Assembly: GCA_013373445.1 (NCBI GenBank)
Contig: JABXHV010000025.1
Coordinates: 80,126-120,567, forward strand
DNA: 40,442 bases
Source: Paracoccaceae bacterium
GTDB taxonomy: Bacteria > Pseudomonadota > Alphaproteobacteria > Rhizobiales > Stappiaceae
Direction: 5' to 3'
Shown here: positions 6,691-40,212 of the stretch, in pieces
Layout of the letters: the number at the start of each line of letters is the position of its first letter
Position numbering within the stretch: the first letter of the stretch is position 1
Program-made: the position numbers and the translations under genes
Notes under the pieces: generated by a model
The model's input: only the letters and a program-made list of their open reading frames with translations
The model's database searches: none
Told to the model about the DNA's origin: nothing

Positions 6691-7084
6691 AAACTGGCAA
6701 TCTTATGTGAGAAACTTATGTCCCAAACCGGAACGCCAGACTGTCCCAGATCAGGACAGGGCCCGAATCGGGTCACGCGACTCACCCGGCAGCGCCACAA
6801 CGAAGTCCGCACAAGGCAGCAAACAAGAAGATGAAGAATACTTGATACGGACCAAAATTGAGACGCTAGCCCTTCTCTTTAAATCGTCGGAAGGACTGAA
6901 ACGAAAGAACTGCCCAAACGGAAGGATTCATACGAAAAGTAAAAAGGGGTGGAAATTCAAAAAATAGATTAAACTGATGTATTTATCTATCAGTTACGCC
7001 TAAATACGTATAATATATAGCAAATTTACATCAATATACTTTACGGTTTACTTTTCATTAACATTTACAGATTATAAATGACAC
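6691..7084. other. Intergenic region, no gene seen
   Basis: About 390 bases. Positions 6720-6960 show no coding pattern beyond a chance ORF overlapping the oxidoreductase on the other strand. From about 6960 to 7080 the DNA is strongly AT-rich and probably carries the promoter of the downstream sRNA candidate; TATAAA at 7073-7078 is a possible -10 box. Confidence 0.4.
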
Positions 7085-7177
7085 ATCCAGACATCTGGAT
7101 CAGGAGTGGTTTTTACCACTCTGTTTGACGCCTCCCTGTTAATGACTCCGAGCCGCATTCGTGCGGCTCTTTTTTTT
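7085..7177 (+). ncRNA. Candidate trans-acting small RNA, resembling the mmgR/suhB (alpha-r8) type
   Basis: The plus strand carries, in order, a 6-bp hairpin (ATCCAG/CTGGAT, 7085-7100), a 7-bp hairpin (GAGTGGT-TTTT-ACCACTC, 7104-7121), an unpaired stretch TTTGACGCCTCCCTGTTAA, and a perfect intrinsic terminator (GAGCCGCA-TTCG-TGCGGCTC plus eight T, 7150-7177). No plus-strand gene lies upstream, so the terminator must end an untranslated transcript. The unpaired CCTCCC is complementary to Shine-Dalgarno sequences, as in the alphaproteobacterial sRNA MmgR (Rfam suhB). The match to that family is from memory; the RNA structure itself is plain. The exact 5' end is unknown. Confidence 0.6.
7150..7177 (+). 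terminator. Strong orphan intrinsic terminator
   Basis: An 8-bp GC-rich stem with a TTCG tetraloop followed by eight T on the plus strand. The nearest upstream plus-strand gene is far away, which is the main argument for an sRNA here. Confidence 0.9.
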
Positions 7178-30678: not shown

Positions 30679-30753
30679 TGGTGGGCGTGACAGGGATTGA
30701 ACCTGTGACCCCTTCGATGTCAACGAAGTGCTCTCCCGCTGAGCTACACGCCC
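30679..30753 (-). tRNA. tRNA-Val (anticodon GAC)
   Basis: The minus strand reads a full cloverleaf: acceptor GGGCGTG/CACGCCC, D-arm AGCTCAGCGGGAGAGC, anticodon stem CTTCG/CGAAG with loop TTGACAT (anticodon GAC), T-arm with GGTTCAATCC, discriminator A and an encoded CCA. It decodes GUC and GUU. Confidence 0.97.
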
Positions 30754-32369: not shown

Positions 32370-32399
32370 CGCGCAAACTTGGGACTCTCGAAGGCTGAA

Positions 32400-32487
32400 A
32401 GAAAAAAGGGCCGCTGAAAAGCGGCCCGAAGTCTAGGGAGGAAACGCCCAAGGAGGGCGGCGCTACTCAGAAGATCGTTTCGCGCTG
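32400..32487 (-). ncRNA. Candidate small RNA with CU-rich motifs and orphan terminator
   Basis: Reading the minus strand, a promoter-like GCTTGACC (about 32523-32516) and an AT-rich -10 region (about 32498-32489) precede a ~85-base stretch with a small hairpin GCCC-TCCTT-GGGC, an unpaired GTTTCCTCCCTAGACTTC, and the perfect terminator GGGCCGCT-TTTC-AGCGGCCC followed by TTTTTT. No minus-strand coding gene lies upstream within a kilobase. CCTCC-containing loops are typical of alphaproteobacterial trans-acting sRNAs (AbcR/alpha-r14-like). Family not assigned; the 5' end is an estimate. Confidence 0.55.
32401..32427 (-). terminator. Orphan intrinsic terminator on the minus strand
   Basis: GGGCCGCT and AGCGGCCC pair perfectly around a four-base loop. 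The T run lies only on the minus-strand side, so it does not serve the plus-strand amidohydrolase gene well and points to a minus-strand transcript. Confidence 0.85.
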
Positions 32488-35869: not shown

Positions 35870-36919
35870 TCAAAGAAGCGAGACGAACTTCTCGACCTCG
35901 CCAGGCGACGTGGCAAAACTCGTCACCAGTCGCAAAGCGACCTCATCTTCTGATATCAATTTATCAGAACCTTCTTCCGGCTCGACTGTCCATTCATAAA
36001 AAGCAGCACCCTCAGCCCGCAATCGGTCGACTTGAGCCCGCTTCAGAACCGGAAAAACTTCATTGATCTCGACAGGCCAAAGGGTGCGGCCACCAGTGGA
36101 CGCAATACCGTCAGCTAGGTCGTGCGCCATCGCGTTCGCATGACGCGCATTGGACAACCAGTGATCGTCCTCAAAATAGGCATCGAACTGAGCGGAAACA
36201 AACCGCGCTTTCGAGAAGACGTGACCGGATCGTTTTTGCAAATACGCAAAGCCCTCAGCCTGGTCCGGATTGAAAAAGACAACCGCCTCTGCTGACCAGC
36301 AGCCATTTTTGGTTCCGCCGAACGATAGAACGTCAACACCAGCCCTCCAGGTCATGTCTGCAGGCGACACATCCAACGAGGCAAGCCCATTGGCAAAACG
36401 GGCACCATCCATGTGCAGGGGAATGTTGCGCTCATGCGCTGCTATCGCGATTTCTTGGAGCTCGGGGACAGAATAGACTGTTCCACTTTCCGTACCCTGC
36501 GAGAGAGAGACTGAGCTAGCCTGCCCGCTCATCACCGCCCCTTCAGGCACTGAGCTGAGCGCGTGCTTGAATGCATCAGCAGAGAATTTGCCGTTACTTC
36601 CATCAAGCCCGATCAGACGATTTCCATTACTCAAGAATTCCGGAGCCCCACATTCGTCGCAACGAATGTGCGCGTTGCGATGGCAAAAGATCGCCCCGCC
36701 CGGCTTGGCAAACTGGGAAAGCGCCAGCGCATTAGCGGCTGTGCCAGTCGCAACGTAGAAAACAGCAACCTCTTTTTCAAAGATGTCGCTAAATCGTTCA
36801 ACGATACGACCGGTCAACTCGTCAGAGCCATACGCAGGCTCAAACCCGCTCGAATGCCGTGTCAGGGAAGCCGCAACCGCTTCCGAAACACCGGCCCAAT
36901 TGTCACTGGAAAAACGCAT
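35870..36919 (-). CDS. Low-specificity L-threonine aldolase
   Basis: A 349-residue PLP enzyme of the beta-eliminating lyase family: MRFSSDNWAGVSEAV at the N-terminus, TGTAANALALS for phosphate binding, HMDGARFANG with the Asp that contacts the PLP ring nitrogen, and FGGTKNG containing the Schiff-base Lys. It splits L-threonine or allo-threonine to glycine and acetaldehyde. It lies 58 bases after doxX in the same direction and may be cotranscribed with the buf operon, though a functional link is not evident. Confidence 0.92.
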   Translation of the reverse strand: MRFSSDNWAGVSEAVAASLTRHSSGFEPAYGSDELTGRIVERFSDIFEKEVAVFYVATGTAANALALSQFAKPGGAIFCHRNAHIRCDECGAPEFLSNGNRLIGLDGSNGKFSADAFKHALSSVPEGAVMSGQASSVSLSQGTESGTVYSVPELQEIAIAAHERNIPLHMDGARFANGLASLDVSPADMTWRAGVDVLSFGGTKNGCWSAEAVVFFNPDQAEGFAYLQKRSGHVFSKARFVSAQFDAYFEDDHWLSNARHANAMAHDLADGIASTGGRTLWPVEINEVFPVLKRAQVDRLRAEGAAFYEWTVEPEEGSDKLISEDEVALRLVTSFATSPGEVEKFVSLL

Positions 36920-36977
36920 ACATCTTTAAACCACTGAGGCTCTTGCCGGGCAAGCCCAACAACGTCATCTAGCTGAC

Positions 36978-37562
36978 TCAGTAATAGCTTTCGCGACGTC
37001 GATAGTATGTGCTCAGGATCGCATCAAGAGAGATACATCCCGGCCCACGTAGCAGTGGAATGAACAAGACCATCAGCCAGAGCATCCGCTGATCTGCGAT
37101 CAGGGACGACGGGTTGCTGTCAAACACCATGCCAATCGTCGAAGCGTCGACGTGATGGCCGGTAATATCAACAACTGTCATGACCACGATGAACACAATC
37201 ATTCCCAAACTTGCAGCTCGCGTGAACAAGCCAATGACAACCAATACCGGCAGAACAAATTCCGCCCAGGTGCCAAGCAACACAATAAGCCCATAGGGGA
37301 AGAATTCAATCTGGCTGGTGTCATAACCGACCTGTTCCATGAGGCTCGGGAGAATTTGCGCATAAGCGCCATCACTCGGCGCCAAAAAGCCCAACGGGCC
37401 TTTTCCAACCTTCGTCATTCCAGAATTGATGAAGTAAACAAGCAAAGTGCTGCCGAAGACCAACCGGGCTGTCAGTCCGAGAAACCATCCACTGGTGATC
37501 GCTTCCAATTGGGCAAAAAACGCTTGATACAACCGAACAATTACCCTGATTAACGCGCTCAT
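36978..37562 (-). CDS. DoxX family membrane protein of the buf operon
   Basis: A 194-residue DoxX protein with four or so hydrophobic segments (LVFGSTLLVYFINSGMTKVG, FPYGLIVLLGTWAEFVLPVL, LGMIVFIVVMTVVDI, MLWLMVLFIPLLRG). DoxX proteins are inner-membrane proteins often linked to redox or thiol stress and regularly accompany bufABC operons. It begins 26 bases after the bufC stop. The precise role in the system is not known. Confidence 0.88.
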   Translation of the reverse strand: MSALIRVIVRLYQAFFAQLEAITSGWFLGLTARLVFGSTLLVYFINSGMTKVGKGPLGFLAPSDGAYAQILPSLMEQVGYDTSQIEFFPYGLIVLLGTWAEFVLPVLVVIGLFTRAASLGMIVFIVVMTVVDITGHHVDASTIGMVFDSNPSSLIADQRMLWLMVLFIPLLRGPGCISLDAILSTYYRRRESYY

Positions 37563-37588
37563 TATGCCACCCCAGTTTGTTGCAGTGA

Positions 37589-38374
37589 TTACATCGATAC
37601 CTTGATAAAGGCTCCTGCCTCAAACGAATCGCGCAAAACAGCGCCCAGATCAAACATCTCGTTCAAACTTTCCGCCTGCGCAGCCGCTTCGCCAAGAGAC
37701 AAACCTTCAGCTATGCCAATAAGAAAGGACGCAGCGCCAGGTTTCAATCTAAAAACAATAACATCCAGCGCAGGTCGTGAAATAAGAACGTCTTCTCCAC
37801 CTTCAATCTCGATACTGTCAACGGAACGTGTCCCAAATCTATTCGCCTCGGCCAAAGACAGAACCGGCCATTTTGATTGCACAATCCTCACACTGGGATG
37901 GAGGTCAAATGTAAGCTCAGCCAGGGCATCGGCGCCGAGATCGGACAAAACACCAGGGTCAAATATCTCGGCATCTTTTGCGTGATAGGCCTGCAGCCAA
38001 GCCCATTCAAACCGCGCCAGATCGCCAAGGTATGGATAAAGGGCAAGAGGCTCGAAGGTGTCGATAAAATCGGGAAATGAGCTTCCGAACCACATCATGA
38101 CCGGCGACTGTGGAGGGTGCGTTTCCACATAAAGCTTAGACAAAGCCTTAAAATACCCCGGCCCAAGCATTTTCATTACGGCCGGAAAATTCTGCTCCAA
38201 AGCCTCAATCAAACTGACCATGACATTGTTGCGGTATACCGAGAACCGTTTTGGCGCCGCCTTCCCATCTGGACCGATCACACCTGCGGGTATATCGGCT
38301 TCAGAATCCAACAAGGACCGACCGAAGTCTTCCAGCTGAAGCGGAGATAAGGCGTTACCCTGCAAGACGTGCAT
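37589..38374 (-). CDS. bufC: BufC-type DUF2063 protein, putative partner of the MNIO enzyme
   Basis: A 261-residue protein with an N-terminal DUF2063 domain: [40 protein letters not shown] and [20 protein letters not shown]. In bufferin-type systems the DUF2063 protein is the partner that presents the precursor to the DUF692 enzyme. Its start overlaps the end of bufB by 20 bases, indicating translational coupling. It probably acts in the cytoplasm in a complex with BufB. Confidence 0.88.
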
Positions 38375-39263
38375 TGCTCTTCACCCTACTGCCCTTGGTT
38401 TCACACAGCAGCGCGTCCGCCAAGCGAGCTTCAGAAAGCAGTATGTTCCACTCAGGAACATCATTGTCCCACTCAATCAAGGTAGGCAACGGCCCAGTGC
38501 GCTCAAGAAGGCGCTTGTAGAGGTCCCAGACGGCCGCATCGACCTCCCGATCATGCGCGTCAATGAGCAGAGGGCGCCCTGCATCATCCACATCAGGAGC
38601 ATGGCCTCCAAGGTGCAGCTCTCCCACCACGTCAATCGGGAATTCATCGATATAGTCAATTGCCGATCTTTGGTGATTAACGCAGGAGACATAGACGTTG
38701 TTTACATCCAGCAAGAGACCACAGCCGGTTCGACGCACGATCTCATTCAAAAACGCCAGCTCCGACATCGTACTTTGTTCAAACGCCACATAGGTCGATG
38801 GATTCTCAAGCAGCATCGTGCGCCCAAGTGTTTCCTGCACTTCATCGATATGATCGCAAACGCGTGTCAATGTCGGTTCATCATAAGGAACCGGCAGCAA
38901 ATCATTGAAATAGGTGTCGCCATGGGTCGACCAGGCTAGATGTTCGGAAAAAAGCCCCGGCTCATAACGCTCATTAAGTGCCTTTAGACGCCCCAGGTGA
39001 GCCCGATCGAGGGGCCCGTCGGCACCGATAGACAATCCCACCCCATGCATGGAGATCGGAAAGCGCGCCCGGATCGCTTCAAGTTGGTGGTGGGGGACGC
39101 CACCATCACCCATGTAGTTTTCAGCATGGACTTCAAAAAAAGCCACACTGGTCTTCGAGTTCAAAATTTCCGAAACATGTTCAGGCTTCAACCCTGCCCC
39201 TGCCCGGTTTGGAATAGCCGACGCAACGCGCTCCGGCTGATCAAAAACGGATAGCTCTGCCAT
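38355..39263 (-). CDS. bufB: BufB-type DUF692 / MNIO iron-dependent peptide-modifying oxidase
   Basis: A 302-residue TIM-barrel protein of the DUF692 family (multinuclear non-heme iron oxidases, MNIO). Metal-ligand type motifs are visible in order: [58 protein letters not shown] and [13 protein letters not shown] enzymes modify cysteines of RiPP precursors; in bufferins they form 5-thiooxazole groups that bind copper. GAGGAGG upstream supports the start. It follows the precursor gene by 62 bases, with a strong hairpin between. Confidence 0.93.
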
Positions 39264-39291
39264 TGGTTATGCCTCCTCAAATATAAAAGGT

Positions 39292-39318
39292 TTCCGGCTG
39301 ACAGATAGCCAGCCGGAA
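39292..39318 (-). promoter_or_regulatory. Intercistronic hairpin between bufA1 and bufB
   Basis: TTCCGGCTG and CAGCCGGAA form a perfect 9-bp stem with a nine-base loop, immediately after the bufA1 stop. On the minus strand it is followed by a broken T-rich stretch (ACCTTTTATATTTG), so it may terminate partly or protect the upstream mRNA, letting the cell make more precursor than enzyme. Confidence 0.65.
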
Positions 39319-39325
39319 AGAAAAC

Positions 39326-39622
39326 TTAAGCAGGCAGATCGCGCTTCAGTGGCTCCAAAGAACCCTTGCGGTCACCAGGAACTTCCATTGTCATGCATGT
39401 ACCTTCTGGAACCAGCTTCCAGGCATTGCCCTGATAATCAATCGTGGAAGTACCAGCGCAAGTCGTGCCAGCACCCGCCTTGCAGTCGTTTTGACCCTTC
39501 ATGGAAACACCGTAGCATTTCTCTTTGCCTTGAGCGTGCGCTACATCAGGCATGCTGATTCCGGAAAGGGCCGTTGCGACTGCGCCGGCCACGGCGGCGA
39601 CGGTAAGTGCTTTCTTGGACAT
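39326..39622 (-). CDS. bufA1: Bufferin-type (BufA1, DUF2282) RiPP precursor
   Basis: A 98-residue precursor. A Sec-type signal peptide ends in PDVAHA (residue 30). The core has four cysteines, Cys36 (EKCYGV), Cys47 (NDCKAG), Cys55 (TTCAGT) and Cys76 (GTCMTME), and ends [12 protein letters not shown]. This is the DUF2282/BufA1 pattern. After modification by BufB/BufC the peptide is exported and is known in related systems to bind copper in the periplasm. AGGAG seven bases upstream sets the start. Confidence 0.9.
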
Positions 39623-40212
39623 TCGATTACTCCTAGTTAAGTCGAAATTCTCAGGCAGAACGCCTCGTGCATTCCGTCTGCAAGCAACCTGACCGCTTCA
39701 ACATTCAATTGGAAATCAAACGACCGTTACGAGCCCGAGAGCAAGTAACGCAAGAAAATTTCCAACCGACAATTACTCAGCAATATTGAAAACAATTACA
39801 GTCGTCTGACGAAACAATCAGACGACCCGGGCTAGAATTCTTCTTGCTCTCAGATCAAAAATCTGTCATCTTCGCGACGTTCGGAATAGGACAGCAACAC
39901 TGTCCTTTTTTCAAAATGTCACATCCCCGCTGTATTTTCAGCGTCGTGGAGGAGACCCCCACCGAACAAAAACAGAAGGTGATTGTTAAAATTACCTTTC
40001 AAAACAAAAGCCTCTGTAAAAGAGGCACGGCGGCAGGGTACCCCTGCTACGTCAATGTTACGATTCGCTTTCGGGGGCGAAACGTTAGATAATAGACATG
40101 CCGAGGCGCGAGCCAGGGTAGTCGCACGAGCCGCGTTTCAGTTCAAAGCGCGACCCGACAGCGACCTGCGCTCAACCGCCAAGGTTACTTGGGTGAAACC
40201 ATGAGGGCGCAC
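39623..40212. other. Divergent intergenic region between buf operon and gltB
   Basis: About 590 bases without a recognisable gene. It holds an inverted repeat CGTTAC-N14-GTAACG (39725-39750) about 100 bases before bufA1, a perfect 9-bp hairpin GTCGTCTGA/TCAGACGAC (39801-39826), and two hairpins in the gltB leader, GCCTCT/AGAGGC (40010-40026) and GCAGGG/CCCTGC (40033-40047). Open frames here lack family features. Confidence 0.5.

Follow-up and report, generated by a model that had tools for sequence, protein, structure and literature searches.

Buf1 clusters, such as CC3254-CC3257 of Caulobacter and others, combine a DUF2282 precursor that carries four cysteines with an MNIO enzyme, a DUF2063 partner and DoxX (PMC12452194, PMC3511200), and these clusters, their chemistry and their role in copper handling have already been published (PMC12452194, PMC12668002, PMC13419390). 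In Buf1 the central cysteines are modified and the outer cysteines form a disulfide (PMC12452194), and every characterised product of an MNIO enzyme with a PME-type 1 partner is described in PMC12668002 as bearing a 5-thiooxazole. Likewise, the Lys-Cys captophorins fontiphorin, oxazolin and gonophorin owe their 5-thiooxazoles to the chemistry of an MNIO and a PME1 protein; their precursors, however, contain repeated EGKCG motifs, in contrast to the four-cysteine DUF2282 domain of the precursor analysed here (PMC12668002). The TglHI and MbnBC systems share with it the MNIO family and the iron ligands, and TglI also the fold of the partner protein, but have a different precursor and a different product. 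The locus presented here is a further example of the published Buf1 (DUF2282) kind and agrees with it in precursor family, cysteines, MNIO enzyme, DUF2063 partner, DoxX and gene order.

The whole stretch of DNA analysed (the window, 40,442 nucleotides) belongs to a genome of 3.64 Mb with a single DUF2282 match and a single MNIO match. The first-pass annotation had proposed a complete bufA1-bufB-bufC-doxX operon, composed of a four-cysteine precursor, an MNIO enzyme, an overlapping DUF2063 partner and DoxX, and our analysis bears this out: its five open reading frames, including that of the aldolase, lie on the minus strand at the positions given in Table 1, and curated models match each of the four buf and dox genes. 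By their ORF coordinates the bufB and bufC reading frames overlap by 20 nt, and 58 nt separate the doxX stop from the aldolase start. Anti-phage models gave no match. Elsewhere in the window, Rfam models match a BjrC1505 sRNA (7040-7176, plus strand), a suhB/mmgR sRNA (32393-32465, minus strand) and a tRNA (30682-30753, minus strand).

Table 1. Features of the bufferin locus and its immediate surroundings (positions in the window)
Feature	Positions	Strand	Basis or remark
Conserved promoter-like element GTAACGGTCGTTTGATTTCCAATTGA, beginning 108 nt before the bufA ATG	39705..39730	-	
bufA1, DUF2282 precursor, 98 aa	39326..39622	-	profile match, Cys pattern
12-bp hairpin in the bufA-bufB gap, with CCTTTTATAT after it	39291..39319	-	terminator-like, gap folding z -4.6
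bufB, MNIO maturase, 302 aa	38355..39263	-	profile matches, iron ligands
bufC, DUF2063 + RRE-like partner protein, PME-type 1, 261 aa	37589..38374	-	profile match, predicted fold
doxX, DoxX membrane protein, 194 aa	36978..37562	-	profile match
Promoter-like boxes before the aldolase, CTTGCC (36954-36949) and TTTAAA (36930-36925)	36925..36954	-	doxX-aldolase gap, outside bufferin operon
Threonine aldolase-type PLP enzyme, chromosomal neighbour, probably outside the system	35870..36919	-	

BufA1 matches the DUF2282 model of Pfam (E 1.1e-24; 86.5 bits, cut-off 22.4) and has cysteines at positions 36, 47, 55 and 76, all of which are invariant in an alignment of 23 BufA sequences. Their spacing, C-x10-C-x7-C-x20-C, is retained in 71 of 72 rows of the family comparison; the exception is a locus in genome G003 (L102), in which the bufA frame is broken past the third cysteine, while matches to bufB and doxX and the upstream 26-nt element are present; the precursor gene may be decaying, or the break may be an error of sequencing. 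The N-terminus, inspected by eye, starts with MSKK, continues with an Ala-rich stretch and reaches AHA at residues 28-30; it reads as a putative Sec-type signal, with likely cleavage after residue 30.

BufB is matched by the MbnB_TglH_ChrH model (E 4.6e-104) and by the NCBIfam model 'MNIO family bufferin maturase' (384.9 bits, cut-off 310). In TglH the irons are held by His71, His107, Glu151, Asp184, His216 and Glu258, with Asn187, Asp229 and His231 as further ligands of the third iron (PMC10880893). An alignment with 8hci, followed position by position, places Glu151, Asp184, Asn187 and His216 of TglH at Glu153, Asp186, Asn189 and His217 of BufB, and Asp229, His231 and Glu258 at Asp235, His237 and Glu264; the two remaining ligands, His73 and His108, were assigned through an alignment with 3bww. 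All nine residues are invariant in 21 BufB sequences, and so is Asp266, which we regard as the counterpart of the catalytic base proposed for FonB.

For BufC the match to DUF2063 of Pfam is likewise clear (E 9e-23; 80.8 bits, cut-off 27.2), and neither phmmer nor two profiles brought up a credible relative among the sequences of solved structures. An AlphaFold model built from 24 sequences (mean pLDDT 93) resembles TglI (8hci; Foldseek E 6e-7, Z 13.1 over 224 residues) and NGO1945 (3dee; Foldseek E 3.7e-5, Z 14.1 over 188 residues), followed in third rank by MbnC (Z 6.1). Its C-terminal half resembles small leader-binding (RRE-type) proteins weakly when taken alone, with a Z of 4.3 for TbiB1. 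PME-type 1 partners consist of DUF2063 and an RRE, NGO1945 being an example (PMC12452194), and the predicted fold places BufC among them, as a DUF2063 protein with an RRE-like domain.

The DoxX protein exceeds the cut-off of the Pfam model (31.3 bits, cut-off 23.6) and is longer than CC3257 of Caulobacter (194 against 150 aa; PMC3511200). The scores of BufC against the NCBIfam HvfC model (50, cut-off 142), of DoxX against the HvfX model (26, cut-off 80) and of BufA1 against the BufA2 model (25, cut-off 60) remain below threshold, and we take these models to describe other subfamilies.

The presence of the operon is more than a chance assembly of genes. We scanned 87 genomes of the family Stappiaceae for DUF2282, which is present in 72, and fetched the loci of 71 relatives, all of which keep the order bufA-bufB-bufC-doxX as judged by sequence matches, one of them (L043) with a weak DoxX match (34% over 95 aa). 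Thirteen of the 15 genomes devoid of DUF2282 belong to one genus represented by 14 genomes. The other two genomes are split into about 680 and 980 contigs: one of them keeps bufC and doxX beside the aldolase, and in the other a contig begins near the aldolase.

Our study demonstrates a conserved element of 26 nt upstream of bufA, with the consensus GTMAC-N5-TTTGATTTCC-NRTTKA. It scores at least 16 of 20 in 70 of the 72 family rows, the exceptions being L043 and L099. The window's genome has a single site with fewer than three mismatches, the one before bufA; a further site with three mismatches, inside a frame that by eye looks like a LysR gene, was considered as a marker of the regulator and is taken as chance. 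When whole genomes of the family were scanned with up to two mismatches, 68 of 87 matched, including none of the 14 in the genus where DUF2282 is mostly absent and all but five of the remainder, and a reversed control pattern yielded four matches in all. Sites away from bufA are confined to one in G002, two in G061 (bufA missing from the assembly) and one in G026 that is unplaceable.

A relation between this element and the chromosomal position of the operon becomes apparent in a broader set. We compared 98 of 100 bufferin loci (two without a BufA match were dropped), calling a locus linked when an aldolase match fell inside the fetched stretch, some of which are short, so that links may be missed. 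The element occurs in 27 of 37 linked loci (6/6 in Stappiaceae, 21/31 in others; absent in 10) and in none of 61 unlinked ones (shuffles 4/4900), whereas the sigma-F-type motif is found in 2 of 37 linked and 16 of 61 other loci (shuffles 25/4900); the locus sets are not independent, since all 6 Stappiaceae also belong to the 71 relatives, further genomes may be present more than once, and common descent ties related genomes to each other. The linked and unlinked labels require 13 changes on a BufB tree as opposed to 35.9 in shuffles, and this tree of 111 rows, made by a quick method under a simple model and with weak deep forks, shows neither a single origin of the linked loci nor many.

In Caulobacter, sigma-F recognises GTAACC-N16-CGAA before the DUF2282 operon (PMC3511200), and in Sinorhizobium meliloti RpoE7 (ECF16) acts on a similar site to drive a DUF692/DUF2063 operon (PMC6180224). 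The window's genome differs from this arrangement: NrsF has no match in its 201 contigs (completeness 100; the Caulobacter control was positive), GTAAC-N15..17-CGAA is absent within 400 nt upstream of bufA, and a different conserved element is present. Eight matches to sigma-70 region 2 occur in the genome. With NrsF and the sigma-F-type motif both absent, a stress response linked to sigma-F cannot be assumed here. The motif is present in only 1 of 72 family rows, the cluster L043 of G084, a genome of the genus mostly devoid of DUF2282. This cluster shares with the window the genes for a precursor, an MNIO enzyme and a DUF2063 protein as well as one for a DoxX-like protein, but lies on a contig other than that of the aldolase, has ECF sigma and NrsF genes downstream, lacks the 26-nt element, and belongs to another BufB group, in which it clusters with Rhizobium, Pseudorhodoplanes and Rhodobacteraceae rows (quick tree, SH-aLRT 96). 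Its DoxX-like protein has 148 aa, and its alignment gaps face approximately residues 9-23, 53-63 and 132-148 of the window's DoxX.

The element contains TTGAT-N6-TTKAT, a direct repeat of 11 nt, beside GTMAC, a sequence similar to the -35 box in the sigma-F-type motif. Direct repeats of 11 nt are of the kind bound by OmpR/PhoB-type regulators. A consensus scan found no sigma-70-type promoter before bufA on the bufA strand, and a literature search for TTGATTTCC returned nothing related by title among the matches listed. Transcription of the operon probably depends on the 26-nt element, which differs from the sigma-F type known so far. Beyond this, we see an even chance that Bufferin-1 operons fall into two classes of control, namely clusters with sigma-F and NrsF on the one hand and, on the other, an inherited gltB-aldolase-ibpA locus, typical of the order to which this family belongs, with the element and a putative regulator of this single operon.

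A second non-coding feature is the hairpin in the gap between bufA and bufB. Folding of this gap is stronger than in shuffled sequences across the family (average z -2.67, n=70, excluding L067 with a gap of 29 nt and the frame-disrupted L102; z of -2 or below in 40), the window reaching -4.6, compared with family means of -0.58 for the bufC-doxX gap, -0.27 upstream of bufA and -1.49 for the doxX-aldolase gap. Terminator-like sites as such number 11 in the scanned stretch against 7.1 (sd 2.8) in shuffles. We considered whether the hairpin is special to the linked class, and rejected this: the mean z is -1.80 in unlinked Buf1 loci (n=38) and -2.01 in linked ones (n=34); loci whose gap fell outside 30-250 nt, 25 in number, were left out. 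Because its strength is alike in both groups, the hairpin is a general trait of Buf1, given a gap of sufficient length. Its simplest reading, based on sequence and folding, would be a partial terminator or a stabiliser of the mRNA end that favours the precursor over the enzyme. The main text of the cluster survey (PMC12452194) does not contain the words 'promoter', 'terminator' or 'hairpin'. Two more terminator-like hairpins lie between bufA and the divergent gltB, at 39800-39827 (minus strand) and 39888-39906 (plus strand).

The reading of the locus as a bufferin-1 operon holds for every feature that can be checked by sequence and predicted structure. With a probability of roughly 0.88, the locus is an operon of this type, yielding a cysteine-modified, exported and copper-sequestering peptide. 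The RRE-like domain of BufC would hold the precursor, while BufB, as a multi-iron oxidase, would act in the cytoplasm and turn the central Cys 47 and 55 into 5-thiooxazoles. The peptide would then leave by way of Sec, be cleaved at about residue 30, form a disulfide between the outer Cys 36 and 76 and capture excess copper in the periplasm. DoxX would act as an accessory membrane protein, and the hairpin past bufA may raise the output of precursor over that of maturase.

The purpose of such a peptide might be a different one: the operon could serve another metal, or oxidative or sulfur stress, instead of copper. CC3255, a sigma-F-dependent gene of the Caulobacter DUF2282 operon, is induced by dichromate and cadmium (PMC3511200), a DoxX homologue elsewhere guards against oxidative or sulfur stress (PMC12452194), and the element found here belongs to a class different from the sigma-F type. 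Nevertheless, copper binding is reported for Buf1 products (PMC12452194, PMC12668002), and copper may be one inducer among several, so that we consider this alternative unlikely. That the precursor is exported unmodified, or that the cluster is decaying, finds a parallel in the disrupted bufA of L102, but is highly improbable for the window, in which all frames are open and the catalytic residues and cysteines are intact, and in view of the cysteine spacing kept in all but one of 72 family rows. A copper-sequestering bufferin remains the preferred reading, and the question is then whether its pathway includes a fifth gene.

The first-pass annotation had drawn attention to the short distance between doxX and the threonine aldolase and to a possible shared transcript. 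The 58-nt spacing is correct; a functional coupling is not supported. The closest solved match of this enzyme is labelled 'Aldolase', and the matches that follow are L-threonine aldolases. In favour of a five-gene operon with the aldolase as a working part of the pathway, it lies downstream of the buf genes and in the same direction in 70 of 71 family relatives, and the gap to doxX is below 200 nt in 65 of 71 rows. Outside the family (139 aldolase loci listed, 85 chosen with at most 4 per family and none closer than 5 kb to the low contig end, 80 fetched), 20 of the 80 loci have buf genes no more than 7 kb away from the aldolase; 6 of these have no gltB or ibpA near, are not explained by that neighbourhood, and leave some room for a selected link between buf genes and aldolase. 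One of the 20 (L303, G170) has the buf genes on the strand opposite to the aldolase.

These shared positions first seemed to speak for coupling, but the context count alters the picture. The family relatives have not only the aldolase beside the buf genes but also gltB (68 of 71) and ibpA (67 of 71), and in the genus with DUF2282 missing from most genomes the genes gltB, aldolase and ibpA stand together in 14/14 loci, with no bufferin match in a 4-kb stretch. The aldolase was present in all 17 family genomes tested, 13 of which have no DUF2282. Likewise, among the 60 extra-family loci without buf genes, gltB is near the aldolase in 45, ibpA in 49 and both in 43. Conversely, 80 loci found by BufB include 17 with an aldolase match, downstream of the operon in 8 and upstream in 9. 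Buf-less gltB-aldolase-ibpA loci and an aldolase on either side mean that the operon often sits in a conserved chromosomal neighbourhood. Moreover, the doxX-aldolase gap measures 1.0-2.6 kb in 6 of 71 rows, and separate promoter-like boxes precede the aldolase gene in the family: a TTG at -40 to -29 from its ATG is found in 68 of 71 rows with the operon (0 in the control window) and in 14/14 rows of the DUF2282-poor genus (control 1). As a general feature these boxes fail, with TTG in 8/19 and 17/60 rows outside the family (controls 2 and 14), and we claim them for the family only.

Since the aldolase keeps its place in many relatives that have no operon there, lies upstream in more than half of the linked loci found by BufB, and its boxes are its own in the family, we consider a role of the aldolase in the pathway very unlikely; it is best read as a chromosomal neighbour, and transcriptional read-through from doxX is possible. 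The cluster survey (PMC12452194) took unrelated genes only within 10 bp, and by this limit the aldolase would go unlisted here. Our literature search, with most subscription papers outside its scope, found no paper joining DUF2282 with threonine aldolase and none joining MNIO with Roseibium.

The evidence argues against threonine aldolase as a gene of the bufferin pathway, and the control element is the part of the locus most worth following: with approximately one 26-nt site per genome, it provides a concrete handle for seeking a second bufferin regulator. For the family itself, our data reveal the bufferin operon as a stable gene set in most genera of one alphaproteobacterial family, and not as a sporadic cluster.
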